Below are positions 17,468 to 46,275 of a stretch of DNA of 47,010 nt, one piece after another. A program made the translations under genes and the position numbers. The notes below the pieces were generated by a model. The model had not been told where the DNA came from and searched no databases. It saw only the letters and a program-made list of their open reading frames with translations. The stretch comes from a virus. How positions within the stretch are numbered: position 1 is the first letter of the stretch; every line of letters starts with the position of its first letter. Location: IMG/VR virus record IMGVR_UViG_3300014838_000032, positions 1 to 47,010 of that record. The stretch is one strand, 5' to 3'.

Positions 17468-17469
17468 CG

Positions 17470-20137: not shown

Positions 20138-20152
20138 CGCCGGCCTTGCGCA

Positions 20153-20176: not shown

Positions 20177-20181
20177 CGGTC

Positions 20182-21354: not shown

Positions 21355-21482
21355 GCGAGCCTAAAAAGGCGCCAGTGCCGTGGGCTGCGTTCCTGATAAT
21401 CGGCGTCTACGCTGCCTTCTGGACGATGGTGTGGGGCGGCGCTGCCGTCATCGTCGTCCATTTCCTGATCAAGTGGTGGTAG
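21351..21482 (+). CDS. 43-residue membrane protein
   Basis: ATGA overlap with the previous gene. After a short polar start the remainder is one long hydrophobic, Trp-rich segment (FLIIGVYAAFWTMVWGGAAV), ending KWW. Probably inner-membrane; whether it has a holin-like, exclusion or other role cannot be told. Confidence 0.5.
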   Translation: MSEPKKAPVPWAAFLIIGVYAAFWTMVWGGAAVIVVHFLIKWW

Positions 21483-21484
21483 CC

Positions 21485-21553
21485 ATGAGCGTAGAATACT
21501 TTTGCATGCTTATCCGGTTGCCGCACACAAACGCTGAAACCCACTATATCTAG
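21485..21553 (+). CDS. Possible 22-residue peptide
   Basis: ATG two bases after the previous stop, ending TAG. The peptide reads MSVEYFCMLIRLPHTNAETH plus two residues. It has no clear ribosome-binding site; support is only position in a coupled gene series. Confidence 0.2.
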   Translation: MSVEYFCMLIRLPHTNAETHYI

Positions 21554-21562
21554 GAGGCCGCA

Positions 21563-21817
21563 ATGAGCGCTCAGAAATCTATCCGCCTGCAAATCGCGGC
21601 GGATTTGGTTGGCGATTTAGCCGACGCCGTAGAAGCCTTTGGAAGCCTGCTTGATCTCGTGCATCAAGAAGTTGGCGAAGAGATATTCAGCCGCGTATCT
21701 GAGGCGTTTCCGGTCGATCACGGGGCGTTTGGGCCAAAAGCGAATGCCGCCCTGGTCAGATTGATGCACCAATTGACCCCGCCAGACGATTATGACCCGG
21801 ATGCGAGGATGGCATGA
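21563..21817 (+). CDS. Small helical hypothetical protein
   Basis: 84 aa, ATG after the strong site TAGGAGG. Helical, acidic (IAADLVGDLADAVEAFGSLL, then VHQEVGEEIFSRVSEAFPV), with a C-terminal helix (NAALVRLMHQLTPPDDY). No family is recognised. The good ribosome-binding site starts a new coupled pair with 21814. Confidence 0.55.
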   Translation: MSAQKSIRLQIAADLVGDLADAVEAFGSLLDLVHQEVGEEIFSRVSEAFPVDHGAFGPKANAALVRLMHQLTPPDDYDPDARMA

Positions 21818-22038
21818 AACCGCAGCACCGCTACACGGTCGGGACGCAGCCCTGCCAGAATCTGTTGCGTGGCGACGCTGATATCGCGGCGCTCGGGGAA
21901 GGCAACCGCAGGAACGTTCATCAATGTCCGGTCTGTGAAGGCAATCGGACATGGTGCGAAACCTGCCACACCGACCATCACGACGGCGGATGGGAAACCT
22001 GCAAGCCCGGAGCCTACGCAGAAGATGACGACACATGA
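21814..22038 (+). CDS. Small zinc-ribbon protein
   Basis: 74 aa, ATGA overlap with the previous gene. QCPVCEGNRTWCETCHTDHHDGG supplies two Cys pairs and His ligands, like the glycine-poor knuckles of DnaJ-type or tiny phage zinc proteins. The end is acidic. Function unknown. Confidence 0.55.
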   Translation: MKPQHRYTVGTQPCQNLLRGDADIAALGEGNRRNVHQCPVCEGNRTWCETCHTDHHDGGWETCKPGAYAEDDDT

Positions 22039-22057
22039 CCACAACATCTAGGGCCGT

Positions 22058-22120
22058 ATGTCCAAACCGGATAAGCATGAAAGATTTCTTGTGATCAACG
22101 TACGATGTCCAAAGCAATAG
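22058..22120 (+). pseudogene. Possible 5' fragment of a gene interrupted by the methyltransferase cassette
   Basis: A 20-codon frame (MSKPDKHERFLVINVRCPKQ) that looks like a genuine N-terminus but stops at once, 46 nt before the methyltransferase. Sequence resuming at about 23577 in another frame (DAAVLYFSDEDGRSAMVDLL) could be the other half. No join can be shown from one genome. Confidence 0.25.
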
Positions 22121-22166
22121 AGTGGCGTTGCCGTTAATGTCGATAGCGAATCGATTTGGGGTGACG

Positions 22167-23498
22167 ATGGCGCGGCCTATTGGAATTGACCTGTTTTCGG
22201 GCGCTGGGGGAATGTCGCTTGGGTTCGAGCAGGCGGGGTTTGACGTAGTCGCCTCGGTGGAGATCGAGCCGATCCATTGTGCTGTTCACAAATTCAATTT
22301 TCCGAATTGCGCAGTTATCCCAAAAAGCGTTGCGGAGATTACCGGCGCGGAGATCAGGCGGGCCGCCGGAATTGGCAATCAGCAAGTTGATTGCGTGTTC
22401 GGTGGACCTCCATGTCAGGGCTTCTCGTTGATCGGTCATCGCGTCCTTGATGATCCGCGCAATTCGCTTGTTCTGGAATTTGTGCGGCTCGTGCGCGAAT
22501 TGCGCGCTCAGACATTTGTCTTCGAGAACGTAAAGGGCCTGACGGTCGGGCGGCACCGCGCCTTCTTGGACGAGCTTGTCGCTGCGTTTGCAGAAGCCGG
22601 CTATGTTGTCCGGCTGCCGTGGCAGGTGTTTGACGCTGCGCACTTCGGCGTTCCGCAACATCGTGAACGCTTGATTTTGGTCGGTGCTAAGAAAGGCGTG
22701 CGGCTGCCCGAGTACCCTCGGCGAACGACAAGTGCCGCCGACGAACCCGCGCTGGATTTGCCACATGGCCCGACATGCGCCGACGCTCTTGGTGATTTAC
22801 CGAACGCCGATAAATACGCGGCGCTAGAGCGGGGCGATAGCATGCGACCCACAAAGTGGAATAAGCCATCAACCTACGCCAGAGAATTGCGGTGCCTAAC
22901 GAACGATGCATGGCACTATGGATACGTGAGAAACTGGGACCCGTCCGTTTTGACCTCGTCTTGGCGAACCGGACACTCGGTGATTTCCCAACAGAGGTTC
23001 GACCGCACCGAGCCGGGTTCGGTAGAACCGATTTCCAGGTTCTTCCGTCTGCCGGCAAAAGGTCTCTCGAACACGCTTAGGGCCGGCACTGACGGAGCCC
23101 GAGGTGCTTTTACAAGCCCGCGACCGATACACTACAAATACCCGCGCTGCATCACTGTGCGTGAGATGGCGCGACTGCACGGCTTTCCCGATTGGTTTCG
23201 ACTGCATTCGACCAAGTGGCATGGAGCGCGACAGATCGGCAACGCCGTCCCTCCCGCTTTAGCTCGGGCAATTGCGAGCGAAATAGTTAGGGGACTTGGC
23301 TACAGGCCGAGCCGCCCTAGAAAGGCGGTCGAGCTCGGGGACGTAGCTCTACTTTCTATCGAGATGTCGCAAGCGGCGAGCTACTTCGGAGTGGCTGCTC
23401 CGAACGGAAGGCGAGATCGGAAGAGTGGTGCTCGCAAGCGAACTCAGCAAGAGACGGAAGCGGCTCGCCTGCATGCCTTGGGAGAACTCCATGGCTAA
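22167..23498 (+). CDS. C5-cytosine DNA methyltransferase
   Basis: 443 aa from the ATG at 22167, where the family's usual start (PIGIDLFSGAGGMSLGF) begins; ATG 22137 and TTG 22122 are alternatives. Motif IV is GGPPCQGFS with catalytic C83, motif VI is FENVKG (E120-N121-V122), motif VIII is FGVPQHRERL, and motif X is IGNAVPP. The target-recognition region is residues about 200-330. A C-terminal extension of about 65 residues is basic. It methylates cytosine in a specific site. It lies in a run of tiny unrelated genes, which suggests acquisition as a cassette, and its end overlaps a truncated frame resembling a restriction enzyme. Confidence 0.9.
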   Translation: MARPIGIDLFSGAGGMSLGFEQAGFDVVASVEIEPIHCAVHKFNFPNCAVIPKSVAEITGAEIRRAAGIGNQQVDCVFGGPPCQGFSLIGHRVLDDPRNSLVLEFVRLVRELRAQTFVFENVKGLTVGRHRAFLDELVAAFAEAGYVVRLPWQVFDAAHFGVPQHRERLILVGAKKGVRLPEYPRRTTSAADEPALDLPHGPTCADALGDLPNADKYAALERGDSMRPTKWNKPSTYARELRCLTNDAWHYGYVRNWDPSVLTSSWRTGHSVISQQRFDRTEPGSVEPISRFFRLPAKGLSNTLRAGTDGARGAFTSPRPIHYKYPRCITVREMARLHGFPDWFRLHSTKWHGARQIGNAVPPALARAIASEIVRGLGYRPSRPRKAVELGDVALLSIEMSQAASYFGVAAPNGRRDRKSGARKRTQQETEAARLHALGELHG

Positions 23499-29722: not shown

Positions 29723-30073
29723 ATGATCTCGTCGAGAGCCATCTCAATTTGCTGGATCATCCTCTCGGGGGTTGCAGCTTCGTTTGCCAAGGAAGGCGAC
29801 GGCCATTCGCAATCGCCGCTTCATGCGTGGTTTGAGGGCCTGCAATCGGGCAAAGGGCGCTGCTGCGCTGACGCTGACGGGGATGTGGTCAAGGATGCCG
29901 ATTGGGAGGTAAAGCGCGGCCATTACCGTGTGTTCATGCTGCGGGAGTGGGTTGACGTTCCTGACGATGCCCTGATCACCGTTCCCAATCTCGACGGACG
30001 GACAATCGTCTGGCCCATCTGGATCGACGGTAGGCCGCAGGTTCGATGTTTTATGCCGGGGAGCATGACTTAA
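29723..30073 (+). CDS. Small exported protein of a Rhizobiales-type family
   Basis: 116 aa from the ATG at 29723. A signal-peptide-like start (ISICWIILSGVAASFAKEG) is followed by HAWFEGLQSGKGRCCADADG, then DWEVKRGHYRVFMLREWVDV, and IRCFMPGSMT-like VRCFMPGSMT at the end. I recall many chromosomal copies of this family in Bradyrhizobium-like bacteria, annotated only as exported or hypothetical. It supports a Rhizobiales host. It is probably a host-derived passenger gene. Confidence 0.7.
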   Translation: MISSRAISICWIILSGVAASFAKEGDGHSQSPLHAWFEGLQSGKGRCCADADGDVVKDADWEVKRGHYRVFMLREWVDVPDDALITVPNLDGRTIVWPIWIDGRPQVRCFMPGSMT

Positions 30074-30074: not shown

Positions 30075-30431
30075 ATGGCGGTCGAGCGTTTGAGCCCAAT
30101 CCTAGAGCGCAACGGCAACCGGATGTTTCATTGGTGCCCAGCGTGCGAGGTGCTGCATCCGGTGTTCGATGGCTTCGGCTGGAAATGGAACGGCGACGTC
30201 GACAAGCCGACGTTCACGCCGAGTTTCAAGCATTCCGGCAAACGCTTGGTTGTGGTCGACGGCAAGTGGAACGGAGAATGGCATCGCGACGAGGACGGCC
30301 ATCCGATAGACGGCACGTGCCACTACATCATCACCGATGGACAAATCCAGTTTTGCTCTGACAGTTGGCATAAGCGATCTGATATCGTGGCGATGCCGCC
30401 TATCCCGGCCAACGTGAGCGCGAGCGACTGA
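30075..30431 (+). CDS. DUF6527-like protein
   Basis: 118 aa. HWCPACEVLHPVFDGFGWKW, then GDVDKPTFTPSF, then CHYIITDGQIQFCSDSWHK match the DUF6527 layout: a Cys pair, an ...NGDxxxPTFxPS... strand and an ...DGxIQF... strand. Common in phages and mobile elements, with unknown role. One base separates it from the previous gene. Confidence 0.65.
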   Translation: MAVERLSPILERNGNRMFHWCPACEVLHPVFDGFGWKWNGDVDKPTFTPSFKHSGKRLVVVDGKWNGEWHRDEDGHPIDGTCHYIITDGQIQFCSDSWHKRSDIVAMPPIPANVSASD

Positions 30432-30433
30432 CG

Positions 30434-32437
30434 ATGACCGATAATGTGATTCGCGCCGCCGGCATCCTGTTCCTCGATCCCGAGGGCAAAGCCTTATTCC
30501 TGCGCCGCGCTGACGGCGACCAGATCGGCCGTTGGGCGTTTCCCGGTGGAAAAATCGAGGATGGCGAGGACGCCGATGGTGCGGCAATCCGCGAGGTCGA
30601 GGAGGAGACCGGATACAAGGTAAAGCCAGCGGCGCTGCGTCTGCACGCAAGGCGCATCAAGCCGGTGTTGGAGGATGTAGCTGAAAAGCCGGCGTCGCTT
30701 GTTCCTGACGTGGTCGAGCTGCCGCCTCCGCCTATGGTTGATTTCACGACGTTCCTTGTCCGCGTCCCGGTCCAGTTCACACCTAAGCTGAATGAGGAGC
30801 ATGACGGCTTCGTGTGGTCGTCGATCGGCGACGCGCCGCAACCGCTGCATCCCGGCTGTCAGATCGCGCTCGACAAGCTGACGATGAATGAGCTGGGGAT
30901 CGCGCGCGCGATGGCCGCGGGCGAGCTAATGTCGCCGCAGCGCTACATCAACATGACGATGTGGACGATGCGGATCACGGGTACGGGCCGGTCATTCCGC
31001 AAGGCGCAGAAGCGAAAGGACGACGACGGCAAGACGATCGTCTATGACGAGCACGTCTATCGGCCGCCAGAGCACTATCTCAATCAGGATTTCCTCGATC
31101 GATGCAACGGGCTGCCGGTTATCTGGCTGCACCCGGCTAAGGCGAAGCTGACGTCAAAAGAGTTCGCCAAGCGGATCGTCGGCACCGTTTTTGTGCCCTA
31201 CATCGACGAAGATGAAGTCTGGGCGGTGGCCAAGATCTATGACGACGAGGCCAACGCCGAGATGGAAAAAGGCGTGCTGTCCACAAGTCCCACTGTTGTT
31301 TTCACGAAACTCAGTGTAAATCAGTCCGTAGCACTTCCCGACAAGAGCTTGTTACTCATTGAAGGCGACCCCGGTTTGCTAGATCATGTCGCGATCTGCC
31401 AGCAGGGTGTTTGGGACAAAGGCGGGGAGCCCGCCGGAATTAGCAGCGATCACATCATCAGAGGAGATTCCAGCGTGGCCGAAAAAACCGAAGCAGAGAA
31501 GAAGGCGGATGCCGATAAGAAGGCTGCTGATGAGGCCGGTGTTGGTTCGCACGCAAATGGTGTGATGGACGCCATCATGGATTCGTTCAAGAAGATGGCG
31601 GATGGTCTCCGTCAGGACATGGCCTCGCACTGTCAGAAAATGGATTCGAAGTACGATGCTGTGATGGACGCGGTGAAGTCCGACTCGGCGAAGCGCGACG
31701 CAGAGAAGGAAGAAGAAAAGAAAAAGGACGCCGCCAAGTCCGATTCCGAAAAGGAGGAGGAGGAGAAGAAGAAAGACGCGGCCAAGAAGGACGGCGCCAA
31801 GAAAGACGGCGAGGGAGCCGAGGAGACGGCAGCCGACAAGAAGCGCAAGGACGCTGAGGAAAAAGAGAAGGAAAAAGAAAAGGCTGATGCTGCCAAGAAG
31901 GATGCCGAGGACAAGGAAAAAGAGAAAGAGAAGGCTGATGCAGCCAAGGCTGACAGCGTTCCTCGCTCTGAATTCGAAAAGCTTCAGGCGATGGTCACCT
32001 CGATGCAGCCGCGCAAGATGACGCAGGCCGATCGCGATGCCTTCGCAGATGCACAGGCGAAAGCCGACGTCGTGCTGCGCGCCATGAATGACAGCGCAGA
32101 TCCGCCGATGTCCGGCGAGGATATTGTCGCCTACAACATTCGGCTTGCCCGCAAGCTTCAGCCCCACTCAAAAACGTGGAAGGATGTCGATCTGGCGGTG
32201 ATCGCTGCCGATGCCAAGGGCTTCACGATCGCGCTCGACGGCATTCGGGCAGACGCCTTCAAGGCGGCGATGGACCCGACAGATGCGCAGCCATTCCAGC
32301 ATCGCGAGATCAAGGAAACCGCACCGGGCGGCCACAAGATCACACGGTTCGTCGGCAAGGGCACGATCTTCGCGCAGATGTCGCGCCCACACCGCAACGT
32401 CAACTTCATCGGTACCCGCATGCCGACCCAACACTAA
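30434..32437 (+). CDS. Nudix hydrolase fused to a DUF2213 head-maturation protein with charged scaffold-like tail
   Basis: 667 aa. Residues 1-130 are a Nudix domain with a complete box at 39-61 (GKIEDGE followed after seven residues by REVEEETGY), which would hydrolyse a nucleoside diphosphate compound. Residues about 165-330 match DUF2213 (MTMWTMRITGTGRSFRK, then VYRPPEHYLNQDFLDRCNGL, then GVLSTSPTVVF), a family found with DUF2184 capsids and thought to act in prohead maturation. Residues about 345-515 are Lys/Glu/Ala/Asp coiled coil, as in scaffolds. The end is a helical domain. The frame is continuous, so the fusion appears real. Confidence 0.75.
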   Translation: MTDNVIRAAGILFLDPEGKALFLRRADGDQIGRWAFPGGKIEDGEDADGAAIREVEEETGYKVKPAALRLHARRIKPVLEDVAEKPASLVPDVVELPPPPMVDFTTFLVRVPVQFTPKLNEEHDGFVWSSIGDAPQPLHPGCQIALDKLTMNELGIARAMAAGELMSPQRYINMTMWTMRITGTGRSFRKAQKRKDDDGKTIVYDEHVYRPPEHYLNQDFLDRCNGLPVIWLHPAKAKLTSKEFAKRIVGTVFVPYIDEDEVWAVAKIYDDEANAEMEKGVLSTSPTVVFTKLSVNQSVALPDKSLLLIEGDPGLLDHVAICQQGVWDKGGEPAGISSDHIIRGDSSVAEKTEAEKKADADKKAADEAGVGSHANGVMDAIMDSFKKMADGLRQDMASHCQKMDSKYDAVMDAVKSDSAKRDAEKEEEKKKDAAKSDSEKEEEEKKKDAAKKDGAKKDGEGAEETAADKKRKDAEEKEKEKEKADAAKKDAEDKEKEKEKADAAKADSVPRSEFEKLQAMVTSMQPRKMTQADRDAFADAQAKADVVLRAMNDSADPPMSGEDIVAYNIRLARKLQPHSKTWKDVDLAVIAADAKGFTIALDGIRADAFKAAMDPTDAQPFQHREIKETAPGGHKITRFVGKGTIFAQMSRPHRNVNFIGTRMPTQH

Positions 32438-33486: not shown

Positions 33487-34509
33487 ATGCCCGTAATTGC
33501 ACCGGCCTTTATCACGCTCAATCCGTCGCTCACGCTTCCGGAAGTGTTGCTGCCCTATAGCCAAGCTTCGGGCGCCTTCAAGACACTTCCAAGCGGCGAC
33601 CTGATGGTGAGGCTAGGTGAAGGCGATCTGGCCTGCTACATCAATCGCGCCGATGTTCGCACCAAGATGGCGGCGGGACAGAGCGCCTATAACCAGCTCC
33701 CGTCGATCGGCATTTTCCTTTCATACATCCAGACGGCGACCTACCTGCTGCGGGTTCGTGCCGAATGGGATCATCACGATTCAGCGGCGATGGCGCGTCG
33801 CGGCATGGCGATCGAACAAGCCTATCGCCTAGGTATGCGTCAGGGGCATTTCCAGCTCACTCGATCCGCGCTGCTCTACGGCATGAACCCGGCCAACGGC
33901 GAGGGCCTGCTGAATACGGCAGGCGCCGTCGCGATCAACCTACCGCCGGACAGTTACGGCAACGATACCGTCATCACCTATGACAACGGCGAGATGGCGT
34001 TCTTCGTCATCAGCCAGTTGCTCGCGATGAAGACTCGCACCAACCAGCTCGGCATCGGCCGCAAATTCACGATCCTCGGATCGCAGCGCACGCTCGGCCA
34101 GTTCGAGTACAACGTCGTCCAGCTCACGCAGTATCAGCGCGCAGGCGCCGGTTCGCAGTCAACCGCTGGCGTGGTCGAGGGCGTCGGTGGCTTGAACGGT
34201 GACGAGATCATCTGGGCCTATGACGACACGCTGATCGGCAAGGGCGCCGGTGGCCTTGATGCGGTCTTGCTCGTCATGCCGGAAGTCGAGAATCCGCAGC
34301 CGACAACGAACTGGAACACCAACGAATTCGCTAACATCGCTCCGGGGCTAGACGCTTGCGTCTTGCAGCTCTGCGACATGGTCGCGCCGCGCGAACTGAC
34401 CGCGCCTCTGCCCGGTGGCGCCGTCGACGTCGTGTCCGAGATGAGGATTACGAGTGGATGGGGACTCCGTGGTGAGGCAGTCCAAGTGATATCGATGCAA
34501 TATAGCTGA
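33487..34509 (+). CDS. Major capsid protein, DUF2184 type
   Basis: 340 aa, ATG 8 nt after GGAG. Order of recognisable segments: LPEVLLPYSQASGAFKTLP, ADVRTKMAAGQSAYNQLP, LSYIQTATYLLRVRAEWDHH, RQGHFQLTRSALLYGMNPAN, NQLGIGRKFTILGSQRTLG and a C-terminal strand (GGAVDVVSEMRITSGWGLRG). This is the DUF2184 capsid family, with an HK97-like fold expected. Position after DUF2213 and the decoration protein is standard. Confidence 0.85.
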   Translation: MPVIAPAFITLNPSLTLPEVLLPYSQASGAFKTLPSGDLMVRLGEGDLACYINRADVRTKMAAGQSAYNQLPSIGIFLSYIQTATYLLRVRAEWDHHDSAAMARRGMAIEQAYRLGMRQGHFQLTRSALLYGMNPANGEGLLNTAGAVAINLPPDSYGNDTVITYDNGEMAFFVISQLLAMKTRTNQLGIGRKFTILGSQRTLGQFEYNVVQLTQYQRAGAGSQSTAGVVEGVGGLNGDEIIWAYDDTLIGKGAGGLDAVLLVMPEVENPQPTTNWNTNEFANIAPGLDACVLQLCDMVAPRELTAPLPGGAVDVVSEMRITSGWGLRGEAVQVISMQYS

Positions 34510-35406: not shown

Positions 35407-35661
35407 GTGGGCCAGTGGGCAGATGAAAAAGGCGAGGTTTGGAACATCACGGGATTTGACATGCCACAGCAGGAAATGAAGCGTCCTGAAAATAGAGGCG
35501 ACGTGCAGTTGTTCACCAAGTCAGGGGAGCGCGTCACAACGATCAGGCTGCCGCCCGGCGGGCCTCCAGACGTCATCAAGTGGGGCGCGCGGCATTATGT
35601 CCTGCACAATGGCGCCTATCGAGAGGGCCTGTTTCTCGAGTCGTTCGAGGGACCGCGCTGA
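35407..35661 (+). CDS. Hypothetical virion-module protein
   Basis: 84 aa from GTG 35407, with GGGGT upstream. Short beta-like segments (VWNITGFDMPQQEM, RGDVQLFTKSGERVTTIRLP, ARHYVLHNGAYREGLFLESF). Overlaps the next gene as TGATG. No family is recognised. Confidence 0.55.
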   Translation: MGQWADEKGEVWNITGFDMPQQEMKRPENRGDVQLFTKSGERVTTIRLPPGGPPDVIKWGARHYVLHNGAYREGLFLESFEGPR

Positions 35662-36179
35662 TGGATAATGATCCGCCGTTCATCGTTCCCCCGCCGACCG
35701 TCGATGGATTCCTTCAATTCGTCTACGGTTTTATGCAGATCACTCCGGCACAGTTGCCACCAACCTCGCCGGTGGTGTTCTTTGCTTTTCACTCGGCGCG
35801 GGAAACGGTGAACGGCTTCATCAGGTGTGCTGTGCCGTTCCTTTATCATCAGGCGGTCTACAATCTGGCAGCGGATATCCTGATCAATTATGCGCCTGAC
35901 ATCGGTGATGCGTTCGGCAATCCGCCGCCGTTTTATGGGACCATCGGTAAGGACAGGCTGCCTGTCTTTGCGTATCTGCGAAGAAAATTCAACGTCAACG
36001 GTTTCGTCTCAGGCGTGATATCGTCCGCGAGCGATGAGGGAACAAGCGAGTCGATGGTCGTTCCTGATTCGCTCGCGCAGCTCTCGCTGTCGGATCTGCA
36101 AAACATGAAGACGCCATGGGGCCGACGCTATCTGTCGATCGCACAGAAGTGGGGACCGACTCTGTTCGGGATCACATGA
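35661..36179 (+). CDS. Hypothetical head-tail adaptor-like protein
   Basis: 172 aa, TGATG overlap. Contains DGFLQFVYGFMQITPAQLPP, HSARETVNGFIRCAVPFLYH, YNLAADILINYAPDIGDAFG and a basic C-terminal helix. Position between capsid and tail genes suits a connector or adaptor; sequence alone does not prove it. Confidence 0.55.
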   Translation: MDNDPPFIVPPPTVDGFLQFVYGFMQITPAQLPPTSPVVFFAFHSARETVNGFIRCAVPFLYHQAVYNLAADILINYAPDIGDAFGNPPPFYGTIGKDRLPVFAYLRRKFNVNGFVSGVISSASDEGTSESMVVPDSLAQLSLSDLQNMKTPWGRRYLSIAQKWGPTLFGIT

Positions 36180-36192: not shown

Positions 36193-36507
36193 ATGGCAAA
36201 CCAACTTGTGCAGGCTGGTGCGTCGACGCCGGTCACGATCATCCCGTCAGGCAAGCCGTTGGGATTCCAGCAGATCACGGCATTGACAGTGGCGGCGGCG
36301 TTTACAGTGCCGGCGGGCGCGACCTATGCCTTGGTGATGTGCACGGGCGCAAATGTGAATTATCGCGATGACGGGACAGCGCCAACTGCGACGATCGGGA
36401 TGCAGATCACGGCTGGAGCTGCGCCGATTCCCCTCGCCAATCTGGCCGCGCTGCAATTCATCCAGCAGTCGGCAACCGCTGTCCTCAACGTGTCATATTA
36501 TAAATAG
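36193..36507 (+). CDS. Small beta-sandwich-like virion protein
   Basis: 104 aa. Beta-rich, low in charge (GASTPVTIIPSGKPLGFQQI, then FTVPAGATYALVMCTGANVN, then YRDDGTAPTATIGMQITAGA). Such single-domain proteins decorate heads or fibres in many phages. It forms a pair with 36521. Confidence 0.6.
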   Translation: MANQLVQAGASTPVTIIPSGKPLGFQQITALTVAAAFTVPAGATYALVMCTGANVNYRDDGTAPTATIGMQITAGAAPIPLANLAALQFIQQSATAVLNVSYYK

Positions 36508-36520
36508 GGCGTGAACGGTC

Positions 36521-36961
36521 ATGGTCGGCGTTAATTCACAGCGGGTTATTCTGCCGGCAGGATTTTCGCGAATCGTTACCCCCGGTCGCGGGCGCCAACT
36601 GCTTGAATGGCCAGCAAAGAATTCGATCGAAAAACTCGACTTCGGTATCGATTATTCGATACGGCTTGCTGTGCCACCGGCGGCGGCGGGCGACACGATC
36701 GTGACTTCGACGTGGGATCAGATCGAACCTCCGGATGAAGGTTTGGTGATAGGTAACAAGGCAATAAATAATCCGTTTGTTTCCGTCTGGTTGTCGGTCG
36801 GAGCAATCGGATCAGTGTATGCTCTGATGAACAATGCGACGACGGCGCAGGGCCGTATCTTCGTGGAAATCGTTTACCTGCGGATACGAGGCGAAGAAGA
36901 TCCTGACCTTGATTTTTCGGATGCAGAAAATTCGCAGTACATACCGCTGATCGGCGGCTGA
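36521..36961 (+). CDS. Phage fibre-type Ig-like structural protein
   Basis: 146 aa. IEKLDFGIDYSIRLAV, then AAGDTIVTSTWDQIEPPDEG, then FVSVWLSVGAIGSVYALMNN and TTAQGRIFVEIVYLRI follow the pattern of small phage proteins with a DYSxWLxxGDTIxSSxW signature, linked to fibres or baseplates. Ends acidic. Confidence 0.6.
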   Translation: MVGVNSQRVILPAGFSRIVTPGRGRQLLEWPAKNSIEKLDFGIDYSIRLAVPPAAAGDTIVTSTWDQIEPPDEGLVIGNKAINNPFVSVWLSVGAIGSVYALMNNATTAQGRIFVEIVYLRIRGEEDPDLDFSDAENSQYIPLIGG

Positions 36962-36986
36962 CACTTTCCTTTGGGGAATTCGAGCG

Positions 36987-39900
36987 ATGAAAAAAGCTCT
37001 CTTGGCATTGGCGATCTGGTCGCTGTCGCTCGTTGGCCTTTCCCCAGCTCTGGCTCAACAGGCCACGTTCCCTAATTATTCGTTCCTCGACGCCTACAAG
37101 ATCCCGCGCCAACTGCATGGGTTCAATTGCTCGAACAGCGTCATATGCGCGGCTAACGTCATTCAGGATCAGACTGGCAACCCGATGGGTGTGTCGGCCA
37201 ATCCGATCTTTGTCTCGCCCGGCGCGGGAGCTACGTTTGCAGTCACCGGCAGCATCACATGCTCGAATTGCAGCGGCACTGGCGTCTCGGCCACCTTCGC
37301 AAGCCCGATCGGAAATTTCGGCACGCCGGGCGGCTTCAAGGATGTGTCGGGTAATTTTCAGCCGCAGCTCGGCGACGTCACCAATGGAGAATGGGTAAGC
37401 ATCAAGGCTTCGGTCACCCTTCCTGTCTCGGTTGCGGGCACGCCGAATGTCAATTGCGTCAGCGGTTGCAACGGATCGAATGCGTCGGTTGCGCTCACCT
37501 CGATCGCGGTGCCGGCCTCTGCCACCTATCTCGGCGCCAGCGTCGGCGGCGTCCTGACGGGATTGGTCGCGACCGCCAATGGCCTCATGGTCGACGGATC
37601 TGCGGTAACGCAACCGGTCAGCGGCACTGTCAGTCTCGGCGGCACGCTCCCGGCATTTGCGGCCACCCCGACATTCAATTGCGGCACGGGCTGCGGCGCG
37701 GCTCCGAATGCGTCCGTTGGAGCGGTGGCCACGCTGGCGCCGGGCTCGGCCACCTACGTCGGTATGTTGCAGGGCGGCAATCTTGTTCCGCTCACCGGTA
37801 CCGGCGGCAACCTGAATATCCAGTGCTCGAACTGCTCGGGTTCGGGCGTGAGCACGGCGGATGGTGCGCTGTTCGCGGCCGGCGCTTCGCTGTTCGCTGG
37901 CGCGGGCGGTTTCTATCAGACGACGGTGACGGCAAATCCCCTGACGGCTGGCGATCAGGGCATGGTGCAGTTGACGGAATTCCGCGCTGTCATGATGAAC
38001 CTGCGCAACGCGGCGGGAGCGGAAGTCGGCGTATCGGCGGCCCCGCTTCAGGTCTCTCTCGCCAATACCGGTTCGAACGGCTCGGCGCTGCTTGTTACCG
38101 GCGCTGGCGGCACATTCCCGGCCGCGCAGTCTGGCGCTTGGTCGATTGGGCTCGCTGCGGGCACCAACGCGATCGGCTCGATCACCAATACCGGGTTTGG
38201 CATCACGGGCACGCTGCCTGCGTTTGCTGCGACGCCAACCGTCAATCTGGGGACCATCGCGGGGGTCGCGACACAGACCACGCTGGCGGCGATCCAGACG
38301 GCGCTGGGCACGCCGTTCCAAGCCGGTGGCAGCATCGCCAATACGGCCTTTGGCATCTTGGGGACGCTCCCTGCCTTCGCGGCAACGCCTACGGTCAACC
38401 TTGGCACCTTGGGGGGAGCCGGCACGGCGGCCAATCAGGCGACTATCATAGCAGCGCTTGGAACGCCATTTCAGGCCGGCGGTTCGATCGGCAACAGCTC
38501 GTTCGCTGTGACGCAGGCCACGGCGGCGGCCCTCAATGCGACCGTCGTCGGAACGGGTACCTTTGGCGTCCAGCTCACCGGCGCCACGAACAACATCAAC
38601 AACATCACAGGAACTATCAGCCTTCCCACGGGCGCGGCCACGGCCACCTTGCAAACCAGCGGCGCGGCAAAAACCCAGATCGTCGACGGCTCCGGGAACG
38701 TCATAGCCTCGACCACGAATGCCCTGAATGTCGCTTGTATCTCTGGATGCACCGGCGGCGGCGGCGGCGGGGAGGCGGTCTTTGGTCCCACGGCAGTGGG
38801 CGTTGCGAACGCCAATCCCCCGGTCGTGTTCGGCGGTACAGTCACGGGCGCGGCTGGTCAGAACGTCGTCGGGGCGGCAATCAAGCTCGGGAGCACGCCG
38901 CCGTTGGCTACCGACACGGCGATCGTCGTATCGATCTCGCCGAATAGCGTCAATCCAAACGGCCAAGTCACGATGGCCAATAGCGTCTCGGTTGCGATCG
39001 CCAGCAACCAGAGCGCCATTCCAGTCACGCAATCTGGCACGTGGAGCGATCGGATCGTCGGCAATGCCGGCGCGCTGCTCGATTTCGCTGGCCAGAACGC
39101 GACGGGCACATTCAGCTCAGTTCTAGTCGGTGGCCAGTTCAACACGACGCCGGCCACGATCACGTCCGGGAACTTCTCGCCGTTCCAGATGGATGCCGCG
39201 GGCAACCTGCTAGTCAACGTCAAGGTGGGCGGTGGGGGCGGTGCTGTCACGATGGTGTCCGGTGCGGTGGCGAGCGGCGCCTATGCGTCGGGCTCGATCG
39301 CTTCGGGCGCCTATGCGTCGGGCGCGTTCGCGTCCGGTGCGTTCGCAGCGGGCTCGCTCGCCAACGGCGCCAACGTCGTCGAGGGAACGATCACCTCGGC
39401 GCATACCTGCTCGGTTGCAGGGAATACCATCATCGGCTGTCTCGGCCAGCTTGACGACGATATCAAGGGGCCGATCCCGCAGGTTACGGGTCCGCTCAAT
39501 GCGGCGACGGCGGCGTCGACCAGCGCGCTCACGGTCGGCGGTCAGTATCTTTCGGCGCAGCCGACAATGACGAACACGCAACAGGCTGCGCTGCTATTCA
39601 GTTCGCGCGGTGAATTGCTGGTTGCGGCGGGTGTCTCCGGTCTTGCCGTGACGCTGACGTCGACCACGATCACAGGCACGGTTGCAGCCACGCAATCGGG
39701 CACGTGGACGGCTGGTCTCACGCAAGGCGGCTCGGCCTTGTCAGCGACCAACGGCATCTTCTCCAACCTCCTGCAAGGCAACGCGGTCCTGAGTGCCACG
39801 AACGGTCTCTTTGCCAACCTGATGGTCGGCAACGCCGCGGTGGCCACCGGTACCGGAGCGCAGGGAGCCACAGTTCCTCGAGTCACCGTTGCCACCGATA

Positions 39901-40355
39901 CCGCGACGCTGGCGGGCTCGGCGCCCAGCGTTGTGGTGCAGACCAACAATGCCCAGACGGCTGGAACGGCTACGGCAACCGGCCAAGGTCAGACCGGAAC
40001 TGGCGTGGGGCGCCAGACTTTGTCGCAGGACAGCCTGTCTGCGCCGATCAGCATCTCGACGGCGACTACAACCCAGATCGTCGCGCTGTCGGGCTCGACG
40101 TCGATCTATGTCACGTCGGAAGATTTCATGGCCGCGGGTGTGGACACGTTCCAATGGATTTACGGAACTGGAACGGCTTGCGCTACAGGGCAGGGCACAC
40201 TTAGCGGGGCATATTCTCTGAGCACGTCCAATCCGGGTCTTACGAAAGGCGGCGGTGTGGGGACGATCTTGAAGGTGCCGTCAGGAAACGCGCTGTGCGC
40301 CATTACAACGGCAGCGGTGGCTGTCGCCGGTTCGATCAGCTACATGCAATTCTGA
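36987..40355 (+). CDS. Large exported repeat protein, fibre or adhesin-like
   Basis: 1122 aa. Residues 1-24 form a classical Sec signal peptide (KKALLALAIWSLSLVGLSPALA, cleavage before QQ). The body is Ala/Gly/Thr/Ser/Val-rich with repeats: GTLPAFAATPTVNLGT at least four times, paired with QTALGTPFQAGGSI, and VTQSGTW/ATQSGTW. CxxC-like pairs recur (CSNCSGTG, CVSGCNG, CGTGCGA, CISGCTG). A short pentapeptide array lies at residues about 762-796. The C-terminal 100 residues look like a separate domain. Similar repeats occur in phage fibres, but a signal peptide is unusual there. Confidence 0.7.
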   Translation: MKKALLALAIWSLSLVGLSPALAQQATFPNYSFLDAYKIPRQLHGFNCSNSVICAANVIQDQTGNPMGVSANPIFVSPGAGATFAVTGSITCSNCSGTGVSATFASPIGNFGTPGGFKDVSGNFQPQLGDVTNGEWVSIKASVTLPVSVAGTPNVNCVSGCNGSNASVALTSIAVPASATYLGASVGGVLTGLVATANGLMVDGSAVTQPVSGTVSLGGTLPAFAATPTFNCGTGCGAAPNASVGAVATLAPGSATYVGMLQGGNLVPLTGTGGNLNIQCSNCSGSGVSTADGALFAAGASLFAGAGGFYQTTVTANPLTAGDQGMVQLTEFRAVMMNLRNAAGAEVGVSAAPLQVSLANTGSNGSALLVTGAGGTFPAAQSGAWSIGLAAGTNAIGSITNTGFGITGTLPAFAATPTVNLGTIAGVATQTTLAAIQTALGTPFQAGGSIANTAFGILGTLPAFAATPTVNLGTLGGAGTAANQATIIAALGTPFQAGGSIGNSSFAVTQATAAALNATVVGTGTFGVQLTGATNNINNITGTISLPTGAATATLQTSGAAKTQIVDGSGNVIASTTNALNVACISGCTGGGGGGEAVFGPTAVGVANANPPVVFGGTVTGAAGQNVVGAAIKLGSTPPLATDTAIVVSISPNSVNPNGQVTMANSVSVAIASNQSAIPVTQSGTWSDRIVGNAGALLDFAGQNATGTFSSVLVGGQFNTTPATITSGNFSPFQMDAAGNLLVNVKVGGGGGAVTMVSGAVASGAYASGSIASGAYASGAFASGAFAAGSLANGANVVEGTITSAHTCSVAGNTIIGCLGQLDDDIKGPIPQVTGPLNAATAASTSALTVGGQYLSAQPTMTNTQQAALLFSSRGELLVAAGVSGLAVTLTSTTITGTVAATQSGTWTAGLTQGGSALSATNGIFSNLLQGNAVLSATNGLFANLMVGNAAVATGTGAQGATVPRVTVATDTATLAGSAPSVVVQTNNAQTAGTATATGQGQTGTGVGRQTLSQDSLSAPISISTATTTQIVALSGSTSIYVTSEDFMAAGVDTFQWIYGTGTACATGQGTLSGAYSLSTSNPGLTKGGGVGTILKVPSGNALCAITTAAVAVAGSISYMQF
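39270..39374 (+). repeat. Seven 15-bp units encoding ASGAY-type pentapeptides
   Basis: Within the large exported protein, seven tandem codon blocks spell ASGAY, ASGSI, ASGAY, ASGAF, ASGAF, AAGSL, ANGAN. Units differ at synonymous sites and at the fifth residue. Such arrays can gain or lose units by slippage. Confidence 0.8.
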
Positions 40356-40366
40356 GGAGTGGATAC

Positions 40367-40552
40367 GTGAAGAAGCGCATTATCATTCTCGTTCTCATCG
40401 CGATCGCGTCGTGCTCGGTTCGCGGCGATCAGTCGCGCGCGGCAAGCATCATGCTGCTCGGCGCCGGCAGTGGTGGCGGGAACTCGTGCTCGAACGATCT
40501 GGATTTTTCGCAAGCCTGCAACAGTCAATATTTCTCTCTCATCTTCCGGTAA
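40367..40552 (+). CDS. Small predicted lipoprotein or exported protein
   Basis: 61 aa from GTG 40367, after GAGGAGTGGATAC. The start KKRIIILVLIAIASCSVRG has a lipobox-like IASC at the end of the hydrophobic stretch, so Cys16 could be lipidated. The rest is GAGSGGGNSCSNDLDFSQAC and NSQYFSLIF, a Cys-containing tail I have seen at the ends of exported or fibre proteins of alphaproteobacterial phages. Confidence 0.55.
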   Translation: MKKRIIILVLIAIASCSVRGDQSRAASIMLLGAGSGGGNSCSNDLDFSQACNSQYFSLIFR

Positions 40553-40564
40553 GGAGCGATCACT

Positions 40565-41209
40565 ATGATCAAGCGTCTCGCAGCACCACTAACAGCAGTC
40601 GTGCTTTGGCTGATCGCGTTCGCCGCGCCAGCGCTGGCGGCGTGCACCAATCCGATCTCGATCAACAACAACGTGCCGTCCTCGGTCGGTATGAGCACGC
40701 AAACCGGAGATGACGGAAACTGCGCGCCGAATGCAGGGCCGCACAAATGGTATCTCGGCTCGTCGAACAATGGTCTTTACTCGGCGCTGCTGACGCTGGA
40801 ATCGATAGAATTGAACGCGCTAGCCAATGGTGCGGTTGCCGTCAGTTCGGTTGGTGGCACCTCTGGACTGTTCAACAATTCAAACACAGGCGGCGCACAA
40901 CTCGGTGAAATCTTCTTCACCTCTGGCGCCACCGCGACGTGCACGGCGGGCGGCAACATCTCGATCTGGTTTCTTCAAACCGGAGACGGAACAACGTTCG
41001 AGACTGCCACAGCAGCGCAAATGGTCCGCTCTCCAGATGCTATAATTTTTCTTCCCACTGCTGCGATCAGCACCAACACCTATAAAGCGCCGGGGCCGAT
41101 TAACGTTCCTGCACTTCAGTTCAAGGTGATGACCCAAAATAACTGTGGCGCTGCGCTGGGCGGGACCGGAAATTTGATAAAGTTAGCTCCGATTGCAGGA
41201 CAAAACTAA
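40565..41209 (+). CDS. Exported hypothetical protein
   Basis: 214 aa, ATG after AAGGAGCGATCACT. Sec signal peptide (IKRLAAPLTAVVLWLIAFAA, cleaved after PALA). The mature part is beta-rich with paired Cys (ACTNPISINNN, DDGNCAPNAG, ATCTAGGNISIWFLQTGDGT) and resembles small virion or surface beta-sandwich proteins. One base separates it from the next gene. Confidence 0.65.
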   Translation: MIKRLAAPLTAVVLWLIAFAAPALAACTNPISINNNVPSSVGMSTQTGDDGNCAPNAGPHKWYLGSSNNGLYSALLTLESIELNALANGAVAVSSVGGTSGLFNNSNTGGAQLGEIFFTSGATATCTAGGNISIWFLQTGDGTTFETATAAQMVRSPDAIIFLPTAAISTNTYKAPGPINVPALQFKVMTQNNCGAALGGTGNLIKLAPIAGQN

Positions 41210-42010
41210 ATGCTGTCGCGCCGTCGTCTTATCCAAGTTGCTGCCCCAGCCCTCCTGTTGCCGTCGCGCAAACTGTTTGCAGCTCAAAGGCCGCCGTTTG
41301 CGTTTCCGGCTGGGGTGGCTCCGGGGATGAATCAGAGTCATCCTGTTTCTGGACAGCCGTGGATATCGGCGGTGGCCAATTTAGGCGGGAATTTCACAAA
41401 CCTTCTAGGTGGCAAACCGGGAACGATCATTGGTGCTCCGACTGGATTTCTAGACCCGGTGATCGGTCCAAGCGTCAAGTTCAACGGCGCCAGCACGGAT
41501 CAGATCGAGTTTTCCGGTTTCTCGGCAAGGAATCCGATCGGTGGTTTTACGTATGGTTGCATTTTCGTCATGGACAGCATCCCAACAGTCACGGCTGCTC
41601 TCCACAGCACGGCAAATGCAAATACGAGCAACTCTTTGCTTGTAAGTACTGCTCCTGTTTTATTTCCGGAAACCGCCGGAGCGTTTCCGACTGCTGGCTA
41701 TGCGCTTGCGGTTGGGGTGCCTTACTTTGCGGCCTTCAGTAACTATGCCAACGGTGCAAATTCAATTGACGGAATCATTCGCAATCTGGCGACGGGAAAA
41801 GTAGTGGCCACACAGGCTGCATTGGCCAGCGTCGGAGCCTCGGCAGGTGACGGCACCTTCAACATAGGCAACCACACTGCGGCAGTGGCAGCGTTTCCGG
41901 GTCACATCGCTGCGTATATGTATAGTTTTAATTTTGGCAACATGCTGTCGTTCAACACTCTGTTGAAGTGGTCCGAAAATCCGTGGGCATACTGGTATCC
42001 AGGAACTTAA
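41210..42010 (+). CDS. LamG/concanavalin-like protein with a Tat-type signal
   Basis: 266 aa. The start LSRRRLIQVAAPALLLPSRK contains SRRRLIQ, close to the twin-arginine consensus SRRxFLK, followed by a hydrophobic region and FA-AQ. The mature part fits a jelly-roll carbohydrate-binding fold of the LamG type: GPSVKFNGASTDQIEFSGFS, then YGCIFVMDSIP, then AYMYSFNFGN, ending WSENPWAYWYPGT. The ending is typical of these domains in phage-linked proteins. Tat export would mean folding before export. Confidence 0.65.
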   Translation: MLSRRRLIQVAAPALLLPSRKLFAAQRPPFAFPAGVAPGMNQSHPVSGQPWISAVANLGGNFTNLLGGKPGTIIGAPTGFLDPVIGPSVKFNGASTDQIEFSGFSARNPIGGFTYGCIFVMDSIPTVTAALHSTANANTSNSLLVSTAPVLFPETAGAFPTAGYALAVGVPYFAAFSNYANGANSIDGIIRNLATGKVVATQAALASVGASAGDGTFNIGNHTAAVAAFPGHIAAYMYSFNFGNMLSFNTLLKWSENPWAYWYPGT

Positions 42011-42016
42011 TAAAAA

Positions 42017-45000
42017 ATGTTCAAAAGATTTTTATCAGCTCTGGCTGGTGTGGTAGTCGCACTGGCGACGACGACTTCCTTTGCGATGCCGGTCAATCCG
42101 CAGCGCAATAATCTTCTGGCCTACTCGATTCAGATCCAGCATCTAATCATTGAGCAGAAGGCTTCGTTGTCGGGAGCCGTTAAATTTTTCGGCCAAGGTG
42201 AGTCTCGCTTTCTGCCGGTCGGCTATCGTCATGGTTCAGCGCCCTTATCGCCACCCGCCGGCATTTCCCAAGTAATGCTCAGTGTCGGCGCGGATCTTAC
42301 GCCGATCACTTACACAAATGCCCTGAGGGGAAACCAAGCAACAAACAACAATACTTCCATCGACGTCGATGGTAGCCAATATCCGATTACGACGCTGACG
42401 CAGCAGATTGGTTCGCAGACTAATGGTCTGTGGTTAAACTCAACCTATACGCTGTCGTGCGCCGCGACACGTCCGTTCATGTCGATAGTTTTCGGCAATA
42501 CGACCACGCCGACATTTGTGGTGTCGTCTTTCACGGGTGGAATGACGCTCAGCGGTTCCGGCACACCGGGCACGTTCACCAGCAGCAACCAGAATTTCAA
42601 GTGCAACGGCAGCACGGCTGGCACGGCAGTGTTTCAATGCACGTCGCAGTGCTTCGGTCTCTCCATTCTTTATCCGACGGGTTATGCTTTTGCGCCGGGC
42701 AGCGGCGAGTGGATACTTTGTCGGAGCACCAATAACGGCGGCGCGCCGAACGATGATTGCTCCCAATACGCGCTTGCGATGTCAACCAGCGGGGCTTCCG
42801 GCTCGTTCTTCGTTCCTGAATTTGTAGCAGCCATAAAGGGAGCTGGCTTCGGCTGGCTCCGAAATATGGGATCAAGCGCTTCCGACACTACCAAGATGAC
42901 GACGTTTGGTTATCGTGCTCAGATCACCGACCTCCATCTCACATTCACCAGCCGTAATGTGCCGAGCGCTCGTTCCGGAGGAGCGGGCAATACTACGCCG
43001 ACGTGTCCGCTCACGGCTGGCTCGTCAGGACAGGCGCCATATATTTTTACCTGCGCGCCTTCTGACGACATGAACAACAGCGCCAACGACCAGAGCCTAG
43101 GGGCATGGGCTGATGGCGACACCGTGATGGGAAATCCCGGCACAGGACCGACGCCGGGATGGACTCTAGTCAACGCGGTCGGAGACAGCACGACCAACTG
43201 CGGCGGCGGTCCGTGCGTTTCGGCGTCGATCGCGCACAGCCAGATGACGACGGCCAGCATTTCTGGTACGACGATGACCGTCAGCGCCTTCAACAGCTAC
43301 GGGGGCGGCAGCGCCTCCGTACTGCTCGGAGACACGGTCTTTTCTATCTCCGGAACGTCGGTTGCGGCCAACACCACGATTGTCGGAAACTCCACGACCA
43401 ATTCATCTGCTTGTGCGCCTGCTTGCACGGGGGCCGGTGGCACAGGAACTTATGCTGTCAGCGTTTCGCAGACTGTTGCGGCGCAGGCGCTTTACGCGGG
43501 CAACGTGTCCGCCGCCATTGTCGGAAATGTGCTCTATGTCAATGGATTGACGAGCGGCACCACCGAGGCTGGTGGCGTCCAGACAATAACTAACATCTCA
43601 AGTGATGGCTACCACGTCACCTTCAACACAGCGTTTGTCCATGCCTGTTCCGGTTGCCTAGGCTACATAAGTCCATTTGCAATCGTTGTTTCCACGAAGG
43701 CCGGCGGCGCTCAAGCGTTCATCTTGAACTGCGAAGGACAGGGCTACAACGACAACTGTGGTGGAATAAATTCCAACCAGCTCGGCACCGGCTACTCCAC
43801 GTTTGCTTACGATGCCATTTTAGGCGGGGTCATCGAACAGGGCGGCGGCGTCTCGCCGGGCATGGCGCCGTATGAGTATTTCATCAATCTTGCCAATCAG
43901 ACCGACGCGAACTTCTGGCTGAATCTTCCGATAACGGCCACCAACACTTACAAGACCAGAACGGCCTCCCTTATTCTTAGTTTGATGAAAGCGCCGCTCA
44001 AGGTGCTTACTGAAGATGGCAATGAGGTCTGGAATCCGGCGTATCAACCATGGCGGCTGGCGATCCAGCGTGAGAACTGGCTCAATATAACCAACGGCTC
44101 TCCGCTCGATTATACGCACTACATGGCGGTGCTGGCTTCGGACACAGCGCTTGCATTTTCGTCCGTATTTAGTGGCTCAAATCGCTCTCGTTACGAAGCC
44201 GCCATGATGGGGCAATTCTGCTGCGCCCTTTCTTCCAGCGATTATATCTTGGCTCTGGGCGGGTCACTTCTAAGCACAGCAACGAACGCTCCACTTTGCG
44301 TACATTTTGGCGGAACGTTTACCAGCGGGTGTTCAGTAGCAGGACGAAATGTTTATCCTAACCGCCCCATCGACGACATCAACACGATCGGAGGTGCGCC
44401 ATATGTTGGCGGCAACAACATCACGAACGGGTCGGACGTCGGAGGCTCTGGATTCGGGCTAGCATCAGCTTGGTTTTTCCAACCTGTCGTGAACGACTGG
44501 ATCAACGGCAGCGAAGCCGCCGCCATATCGCTCATCGACCAAGACCTGAGGGGGACTTATCCGCGCAGAGCACCCCAAGCACTTACTTGCAGCGGCACCA
44601 CGTTCACGACGGGGACAGGCGCATCGTCATACGAGCCGGGAGGGAATGGCAACTTCTTCCTGTTCACATCGCCCGGTGGAACGCTTCCAAGTGGTTTAGC
44701 AGGAAACCAAGTCTATACGACGGACACCATCACCGGCACAGCCAGCTTCACGGGGACTGGCAGCGGAACCAACCTCACCGTAACCGGCGTCACGGGCACC
44801 ATTGCGATAGGTGCTGCGGTTGCTGGCACAGGCGTTCCGTCCACCATCACCACCACGATCGTCAGCCAGACCTCGGGCACGACCGGTGGGGCCGGTCTCT
44901 ACGTCACAAGTGCAGCCACAACATCCGCGGGGGCGGCGCTGACCACTTCGCCGTGGAACTTCACCATGAAAGGGTTCACTGCCGGAATCCAAAACGGCAG

Positions 45001-45814
45001 CGATGTAAATTGCGGCACGCCCGGCACCGGTACGTTGTCGCTAAACTCTCTGATATACACATCGACGCCATTTACTTTTACGCAAGGCAACAATTCCACG
45101 GTCCAGACTAATCTTCAGCTCTGGCAAACTCTTGCCTGTAGCTACAGCAGCTCCACTCAACAGAGTTGCGGGACGGCAGCCAATCCTCGACCTTCTGGGA
45201 TGGGTCCGGTTTTGATGCGGTGGTACGAAGGCGACATTGAAGTTAATCCTTATGCGGCAGCTACCTTCGCTGCGGCGGTGCCTCCGATCCAGATCGGCAC
45301 TACGGTTGGAATTACCGGGTCGACTCACACAAACACCGTCGTCGACAGTCTCTCGACTGCTCTTGGCTATTACACAGGGATGACGGTTGCCGCGGGCGAT
45401 ATTTCGGGGCTGACGGTTTCGTCGATCAACAGCGGATGCCCTACAACATGCACCGGCAACTATGTGATTCTATCTGGCAATGCCACGGGAACGAACGCGG
45501 GAGAAGGCATCACGTTCTCTGATCCGTCGAGTACAGGAGCGGCCAACGCTTTCAATGACGCAGTTTTTACCGGGTATAAGAATGATCCGTCATTCGCCGT
45601 GACATGGGAGTATTACTACAAGGGATTCATGGGGACCGACATCAATCAAGTCACCTTTGGTTTGATGCCTAATTCGGGGTCTCCTTCGTCTTTGAATTTT
45701 CTTCTCTCGCAACAATGGGGGTTTAGTTCGTGTACTAGTCTGTTCTGCAACCCGCTCACTTCGCCGTTCTGGCAAAATTATAATGGCACGTCGAGTTTCA
45801 ACAGCGGTCACTGA
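42017..45814 (+). CDS. Very large exported protein with a glycoside-hydrolase-like core and inserted beta domains
   Basis: 1265 aa. Signal peptide at residues 1-23 (FKRFLSALAGVVVALATTTS, cleaved after SFA). Residues about 600-780 resemble a TIM-barrel hydrolase of the kind with LTEDGNEVWNPAYQPWRL (compare EYSNEVWN in known alphaproteobacterial proteins), with upstream NLPITATNTYKTRTASLILS. At least two Thr/Gly-rich beta modules interrupt it: near 405-475 (ISGTTMTVSAFNSYGGGSAS) and near 900-975 (GTGSGTNLTVTGVTGTIAIG). A related segment lies near 1095-1160. Cys is frequent. It could degrade host capsule or polysaccharide; the enzymatic call is tentative. Confidence 0.65.
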   Translation: MFKRFLSALAGVVVALATTTSFAMPVNPQRNNLLAYSIQIQHLIIEQKASLSGAVKFFGQGESRFLPVGYRHGSAPLSPPAGISQVMLSVGADLTPITYTNALRGNQATNNNTSIDVDGSQYPITTLTQQIGSQTNGLWLNSTYTLSCAATRPFMSIVFGNTTTPTFVVSSFTGGMTLSGSGTPGTFTSSNQNFKCNGSTAGTAVFQCTSQCFGLSILYPTGYAFAPGSGEWILCRSTNNGGAPNDDCSQYALAMSTSGASGSFFVPEFVAAIKGAGFGWLRNMGSSASDTTKMTTFGYRAQITDLHLTFTSRNVPSARSGGAGNTTPTCPLTAGSSGQAPYIFTCAPSDDMNNSANDQSLGAWADGDTVMGNPGTGPTPGWTLVNAVGDSTTNCGGGPCVSASIAHSQMTTASISGTTMTVSAFNSYGGGSASVLLGDTVFSISGTSVAANTTIVGNSTTNSSACAPACTGAGGTGTYAVSVSQTVAAQALYAGNVSAAIVGNVLYVNGLTSGTTEAGGVQTITNISSDGYHVTFNTAFVHACSGCLGYISPFAIVVSTKAGGAQAFILNCEGQGYNDNCGGINSNQLGTGYSTFAYDAILGGVIEQGGGVSPGMAPYEYFINLANQTDANFWLNLPITATNTYKTRTASLILSLMKAPLKVLTEDGNEVWNPAYQPWRLAIQRENWLNITNGSPLDYTHYMAVLASDTALAFSSVFSGSNRSRYEAAMMGQFCCALSSSDYILALGGSLLSTATNAPLCVHFGGTFTSGCSVAGRNVYPNRPIDDINTIGGAPYVGGNNITNGSDVGGSGFGLASAWFFQPVVNDWINGSEAAAISLIDQDLRGTYPRRAPQALTCSGTTFTTGTGASSYEPGGNGNFFLFTSPGGTLPSGLAGNQVYTTDTITGTASFTGTGSGTNLTVTGVTGTIAIGAAVAGTGVPSTITTTIVSQTSGTTGGAGLYVTSAATTSAGAALTTSPWNFTMKGFTAGIQNGSDVNCGTPGTGTLSLNSLIYTSTPFTFTQGNNSTVQTNLQLWQTLACSYSSSTQQSCGTAANPRPSGMGPVLMRWYEGDIEVNPYAAATFAAAVPPIQIGTTVGITGSTHTNTVVDSLSTALGYYTGMTVAAGDISGLTVSSINSGCPTTCTGNYVILSGNATGTNAGEGITFSDPSSTGAANAFNDAVFTGYKNDPSFAVTWEYYYKGFMGTDINQVTFGLMPNSGSPSSLNFLLSQQWGFSSCTSLFCNPLTSPFWQNYNGTSSFNSGH

Positions 45815-45828: not shown

Positions 45829-46275
45829 ATGCCCGTACTTCATCTCGGAGTCATTGACGATCTGCCTTATGACCAGAAGGGCACGGTGACGACCGGCGAC
45901 GTCGCAGGCTGGCTTGAGGACAAATATCATATCCTCGAAGTCTATTCGCAGGTTCACGGGCCGGACATGGCGACGGCGATGGAGGAAGGCGCGCGCGGAG
46001 CGCTCGAAAGTCTGCTGATGGGGGCCCCGGCAACCATCGATGTGTTCGCGGGCGGCGCCTCGAAGATCGAAGAAGGCATGAAGGAATTCATCACAAACGG
46101 AGAAATGGACAGCCTTGGCTATCCCGGCGTGCCGACGCAGGCAGCGATCGACCGTGCCTTGGGGAAGAAGCGGAGCGGGCGGAAGAAGAAGCGCGGACGT
46201 CGATCTAACTCGCGTCCGGTGTCGTTTGTTGATACAGAATCGTACGAATCATCACTTCGAGCATGGGTCACGTAA
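45829..46275 (+). CDS. Virion morphogenesis/tail completion-like protein
   Basis: 148 aa. LHLGVIDDLPYDQKGTVTTG at the start, then WLEDKYHILEVYSQVHGPD, MATAMEEGARGALESLLMGA and FVDTESYESSLRAWVT at the end match small phage proteins located before the tail genes (neck or tail completion, HK97 gp10-like by position). It has no signal peptide, so it lies outside the exported set. Confidence 0.65.
   Translation: MPVLHLGVIDDLPYDQKGTVTTGDVAGWLEDKYHILEVYSQVHGPDMATAMEEGARGALESLLMGAPATIDVFAGGASKIEEGMKEFITNGEMDSLGYPGVPTQAAIDRALGKKRSGRKKKRGRRSNSRPVSFVDTESYESSLRAWVT

Follow-up and report, generated by a model that had tools for sequence, protein, structure and literature searches.

The window, i.e., the whole stretch of 47,010 nucleotides analysed here (IMG/VR record IMGVR_UViG_3300014838_000032), carries five consecutive genes on the + strand, named below by their first position (36987, 40367, 40565, 41210 and 42017). 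Each has a ribosome-binding-site-like sequence 5' of it and begins with a predicted export signal. They lie in a 9.65-kb insert (36193-45814) that separates two neck genes of the + strand: a core neck-region gene on the left (35661-36179; phrog_6356, 1e-41; collinear in about 60 relatives) and a core neck or tail-completion gene on the right (45829-46275; phrog_6560, 9e-28). The insert also holds two + strand genes without export signal. The first (36193-36507) encodes an accessory virion-type domain protein with one Cys. The second (36521-36961) encodes a fibre-tail adaptor of Gp77 type, free of Cys, which is matched by Pfam PF23148 (57.2 bits for a gathering cut-off of 27; 2e-15) and by PDB 8jou_D (E 0.0017) and ends with the C-terminal tail DLDFSDAENSQYIPLIGG. 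The Gp77-type adaptor is a virion-associated protein of Bcep22-like phages and adjoins tail-fibre genes.

The five signal-bearing genes encode: (i) a long repetitive fibre protein with a Sec signal, 16 Cys in its mature part and a C-terminal jelly-roll domain (36987-40355); (ii) a small protein with a GTG start, a lipobox signal and the C-terminal tail CSNDLDFSQACNSQYFSLI (40367-40552); (iii) a virion-type protein with a Sec or lipobox signal and 4 Cys (40565-41209); (iv) a protein with a Tat-like signal and one Cys, resembling a LamG/lectin-like sandwich by eye only (41210-42010); (v) a 1265-aa protein with a Sec signal, 28 mature Cys and a central ExxNExWN motif (42017-45814). A tail of pattern LDFSxAxNSQY is thus common to the adaptor 36521 and to 40367, where two Cys bracket it.

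Signals were evaluated with a purpose-written scorer based on n-, h- and c-regions and on AxA and lipobox cleavage rules, with a cut-off of 6; it recognised all 10 textbook export signals and none of four cytosolic controls. The scores are 8.5 for 36987 (Sec, predicted cleavage after residue 23), 10.6 for 40367 (lipobox IASC), 8.7 for 40565 (ALA|AC for Sec, or lipobox LAAC), 6.3 for 41210 (twin-arginine SRRRLIQ...KLFA|A) and 7.8 for 42017 (Sec). As background, this cut-off is passed by 0.5% of internal Met starts (33 of 6874) and by 1.2% of the genes in related phages (18 of 1471), so five consecutive genes out of five are far beyond chance. A sequence-only reading of the window had proposed the series Sec, lipobox, Sec, twin-arginine-like and Sec; this is confirmed, with a lipobox as an option for the third gene. 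No other gene of the window passes except 21300 (membrane-type) and 29723 (lysis-type). The latter (29723-30073; 116 aa, 3 Cys) precedes the head genes, is possibly a lysis gene and is 66% identical to a protein of an otherwise different phage (L090). Twin-arginine-type signals comparable to that of 41210 are also found at L094 10482 and L122 3686, and in such cassettes they sometimes sit on beta-helix-like proteins.

The phage is a relative of Certevirus-type myophages. Its major capsid protein (33487-34509, + strand; phrog_6671, 1e-130; phrog_264 major head protein, 2e-5), which served as the anchor for finding relatives, is 52-55% identical to those of, e.g., PdC23. A longer IMG/VR contig (G001, 74,737 bases, behind locus L006) is the same phage, with four differences from the window in 21,020 bases. 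The ends of G001 overlap by about 129 bases with one mismatch (compared with window 8379-8507), which indicates a complete genome of 74,605 bp, 63% of which is covered by the window. Two of the differences, at 38773 and 40498, fall within cassette genes; at 40498, Asp is replaced by Glu immediately before the LDFS tail. Outside the insert, 22122-23498 encodes a DNA cytosine methyltransferase (TIGR00675) and 17347-18396 matches, weakly, a PAPS-reductase-like gene.

In most of the roughly 60 relatives the homologues of the two bordering neck genes are adjacent or almost so, the 45829 homologue following immediately that of 35661. The block had been described as not obviously foreign; this view is not retained, since relative to its kin it is an insertion at a variable site between neck genes. 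Other relatives carry small accessory genes there, including collagen-like proteins and signal-less homologues of 36193 (L025, L048), so the site accepts appendage-type genes. Homologues of 36193 at the site occur with a signal too; signal-bearing ones are found at L047 12395 and L090 16249. No internal promoter above chance was detected in the structural operon; with the cassette located inside this operon, late expression during infection is more probable than a role in lysogeny.

Even cysteine counts tend to prevail among proteins that fold under oxidising conditions. Among non-redundant proteins of at least 120 aa, the mature signal-bearing ones have an even number of Cys in 118 cases and an odd number in 7, versus 233 and 329 for signal-less proteins of the same contigs (odds ratio 24, p = 7e-31); the loci were fetched through homology to window or cassette proteins, so that this result describes these phages and not phages generally. 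The pooled statistics exclude L005 (a public record with toxin genes) and duplicate contigs. The Cys content is 1.50 per 100 aa in signal-bearing proteins and 0.63 in signal-less ones. In mature 36987, the cysteines form eight local pairs (25-31, 69-72, 134-138, 209-213, 257-260, 561-565, 785-795 and 1042-1081); the cysteine survey that gave these pairs included L005. The idea that the mature proteins are rich in paired Cys is thus valid for most of the five and does not extend to 41210, with its one Cys.

Signal-less homologues begin exactly at the predicted cleavage site, e.g., ...anaAANCFWVGGTG with signal and MANRFWVGGTG without, or ...aqaADNAVIL and MADNITV, respectively. In the FWVGGTG proteins the signal is accompanied by an Arg to Cys change. 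Likewise, 40565 is 38% identical over 150 aa to a signal-less protein (L023 9566-10048) in which two of its Cys are missing. The Cys bracket around the LDFS tail is found in exported forms and not in cytosolic forms: a strict automatic table of signal versus Cys bracket gives 9/1/3/9 (p = 0.004), one row being a duplicate of the window's phage. Its exceptions stem from the rule used for starts, i.e., a signal can be seen in L047 and L123, L093 is ambiguous, and the single entry with a signal and without Cys is 36521 read from another start. Three results, namely the Cys parity, the homologues that start at the cleavage site and the Cys pairs that appear along with the signal, point to genuine export to an oxidising compartment, and from the sequences it is very probable that the signal-bearing proteins are exported and fold oxidatively.

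Homology to proteins of virion modules is found for 36521 (Gp77) and for 36987 and 40565 (signal-less homologues in phage structural regions); none was found for 41210. The C-terminal domain of 36987, in which Cys 1042 and 1081 of the mature protein lie, is modelled as a jelly roll (pLDDT 95) with a Cys pair that is invariant in 43-44 sequences, and 50 of the 54 proteins carrying this domain score as signal-bearing. Its matches in BFVD are small phage proteins, from both cultured and uncultured phages, and include one with the name "Virion protein". The fold search against the PDB returned generic beta sandwiches only, nothing better than E 0.02. For 42017, the ExxNExWN motif is common to many relatives, and the central region may be glycoside-hydrolase-like on the basis of this motif, the candidate class being clan A (a TIM barrel with two catalytic Glu); the AlphaFold model has a pLDDT of 32 (12-row alignment) and Pfam gave no match. 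The searches returned no homologue of 41210; a LamG-like protein that adjoins the 40565 homologue in L023 was considered as its counterpart, which BLASTP refuted. Among cultured phages no match was obtained to 41210, 42017, the exported FWVGGTG proteins or the exported ADNAV proteins.

The layout is not peculiar to this phage; the same kind of cluster recurs in dozens of IMG/VR contigs. Searches with 36987, with the LDFSxAxNSQY tail (18 loci) and with the C-terminal domain of 36987 (55 loci) returned phage contigs exclusively, and many of these contigs hold signal-bearing genes. At least three consecutive signal-bearing genes are present in 33 of 158 loci, and 128 adjacent signal-bearing pairs are observed versus 57 +/- 5 when gene order is shuffled within loci; as the loci were picked by homology to the cassette, these figures reflect clustering and not overall frequency. 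In L047 an independent 6.5-kb insert (12395-18939) occupies this neck site; it consists of six genes having signal-like N-termini (four pass the scorer, two were judged by eye), among them homologues of 36193, 36987 and 40367. This insert encodes a beta-helix-like protein of 907 aa and an arabinofuranosidase-like protein (both by eye only).

Signal-less cassettes (L107, L109, L117, L118 and L119) have the same order as exported ones, i.e., an LDFS-tail protein directly before a VKDxxG fibre gene and then further fibre-like genes; they differ in that they lack signals and, at the paired positions, have few cysteines or none. A four-gene order is common to L116, where all genes have signals, and L119, where none has: the third and fourth genes are clearly homologous (E 3e-17 and 5e-21), and the correspondence lies in the shared tail for the first gene and in position and type for the second. 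Signal-bearing proteins of L007 and L004 match PHROG families of tail spike, tail fibre and virion structural proteins. In L004, the Shewanella phage vB_Sb_QDWS, a fibre-like gene (about 30289-32352) gains a signal peptide if an earlier start than the annotated one is used; this phage is cultured and is a possible laboratory model. Signal-bearing genes of fibre type are also present in another cultured phage, Synechococcus phage Ssp-JY42 (L124 8833-11620).

The same phage has a sixth fibre of this type, of 800 aa, with a Sec signal, 16 Cys and an NGGTG fibre motif, encoded on the complement of 19708-22110 of G001, i.e., about 61003-63405 in extended window coordinates, downstream of the window end. 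It sits at the ordinary tail-fibre locus, and other phages have homologues of it that are signal-less.

The reading preferred here, to which a probability of about 0.5 is given, takes the block for an accessory cassette that encodes appendages of the virion, folded in the periplasm and added to virions at lysis. These appendages, neck or tail fibres and tailspike-like proteins, would carry export signals and be produced late in infection. They would pass to the periplasm via Sec, one perhaps via Tat; there the signal peptide would be removed, and the proteins would fold and pair their cysteines as disulfides. Once lysis ruptures the inner membrane, the finished appendages would come into contact with virions put together in the cytoplasm and attach to these, the docking site being probably the signal-less adaptor 36521, through the tail that it shares with 40367 (a putative role for this tail). 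Both the window and L090 have a signal-less adaptor gene immediately upstream of the gene for an exported fibre, an arrangement that docking of such fibres on a part made in the cytoplasm would predict. What the sequence supports is the presence of export signals, an oxidising compartment, homology to virion-type proteins that have no signal, and the recurrence of such blocks; docking at lysis and binding of receptors or polysaccharide are what we infer from it. Of the sequence-only reading, the export signals and, for most of the proteins, the virion or fibre type stand, and acquisition by virions after export is the interpretation favoured from sequence; the chance that the exported proteins join the virion is about even. 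In a broader form of this reading, rated slightly less likely than not, a class of tailed phages would divide the work between two compartments: the cytoplasm for the capsid, the tail and the adaptor, and the periplasm, reached via Sec or Tat, for the disulfide-bearing fibres. The halves would unite only at lysis, and whole fibre cassettes would have switched between the cytoplasmic and the exported mode in evolution.

It is quite possible, if somewhat doubtful, that the exported proteins never join the virion and are reused virion fibre domains displayed on the host surface or released, in order to bind or cut polysaccharide, to aid the spread of the burst or to mask receptors against superinfection and loss of progeny. 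Lipobox-type and Tat-type signals are consistent with this, as are an accessory insertion missing from most relatives, enzyme-like members (ExxNExWN in 42017 and relatives) and, in other contigs, signal-bearing proteins with pectate-lyase-type and BNR matches. Against the appendage reading it counts that several members look like enzymes able to act freely, and that 41210, with its single Cys, has a Tat-like signal of an unusual kind. On the other side, a signal-bearing cassette replaces a signal-less one gene for gene (L116 versus L119), so that an appendage would be lost if its products stayed apart; an exported fibre is also present at the ordinary tail-fibre locus; and exported proteins share their C-terminal tail with the virion adaptor family. 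Phage superinfection-exclusion lipoproteins, such as Llp of T5 and Cor of HK022/phi80, are exported to the host envelope; they are small single genes, whereas the window has a multigene fibre cassette in the structural module, where only 40367 has a clear lipobox and carries the LDFS tail of the virion adaptor.

Assembly of tailed-phage virions normally takes place in the cytoplasm, and these are virion-type proteins, so their N-termini could be hydrophobic virion parts (for trimerisation or capsid anchoring) in the usual assembly; this is very improbable given their n-h-c organisation and their AxA, lipobox and twin-arginine features, the Cys parity and the homologues that start exactly at the cleavage site. 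Host secretory genes picked up as morons and unrelated to virions would fit the variable site of the insert, and are just as improbable, as Pfam and NCBIfam assign no family to the exported genes, no relative of the 36987 domain was found in 84,980 bacterial and archaeal genomes, the LDFS-tail pattern had no match in bacterial and archaeal genomes, and the relatives are in phage contigs.

Among known systems, Bcep22-like podophages and Ralstonia phage GP4 (PF23148; PDB 8jou) have, like the window, an adaptor gene near fibre genes in the structural module. The annotated fibre genes beside the adaptor in BcepMigl start with the fibre sequence MALKLSNN and not with an n-h-c signal, though one of them (11631-12545) scores 6.2, whereas the fibres of the window are exported and Cys-rich. 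Virions rich in disulfides are on record for the Agrobacterium phages 7-7-1 and Milano (PMC12796354; Milano only as cited there). They share with the present proposal disulfides in virion proteins, but the bonded proteins are parts of the capsid or tail, and the 7-7-1 paper makes no mention of signal peptides or periplasm (PMC12796354). As these virions apparently need no export, disulfides alone do not demand it. Searches of the open literature (subscription papers and most preprints aside) returned no description of exported virion or fibre proteins in tailed phages, and no virion proteomics for any phage with such a cassette.

To our knowledge, tailed phages are not known to finish or use surface parts outside the cytoplasm; the present results suggest that some of them do. 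If membership in the virion holds, this would be a new assembly route. Most of the exported fibre genes belong to no Pfam or PHROG family and can easily be mistaken for host secretory genes. Exported fibre cassettes imply either a second folding compartment, with disulfide chemistry for receptor-binding proteins, or a new class of secreted phage effectors produced along with the virion genes, and in either case the annotation of receptor-binding proteins would change.
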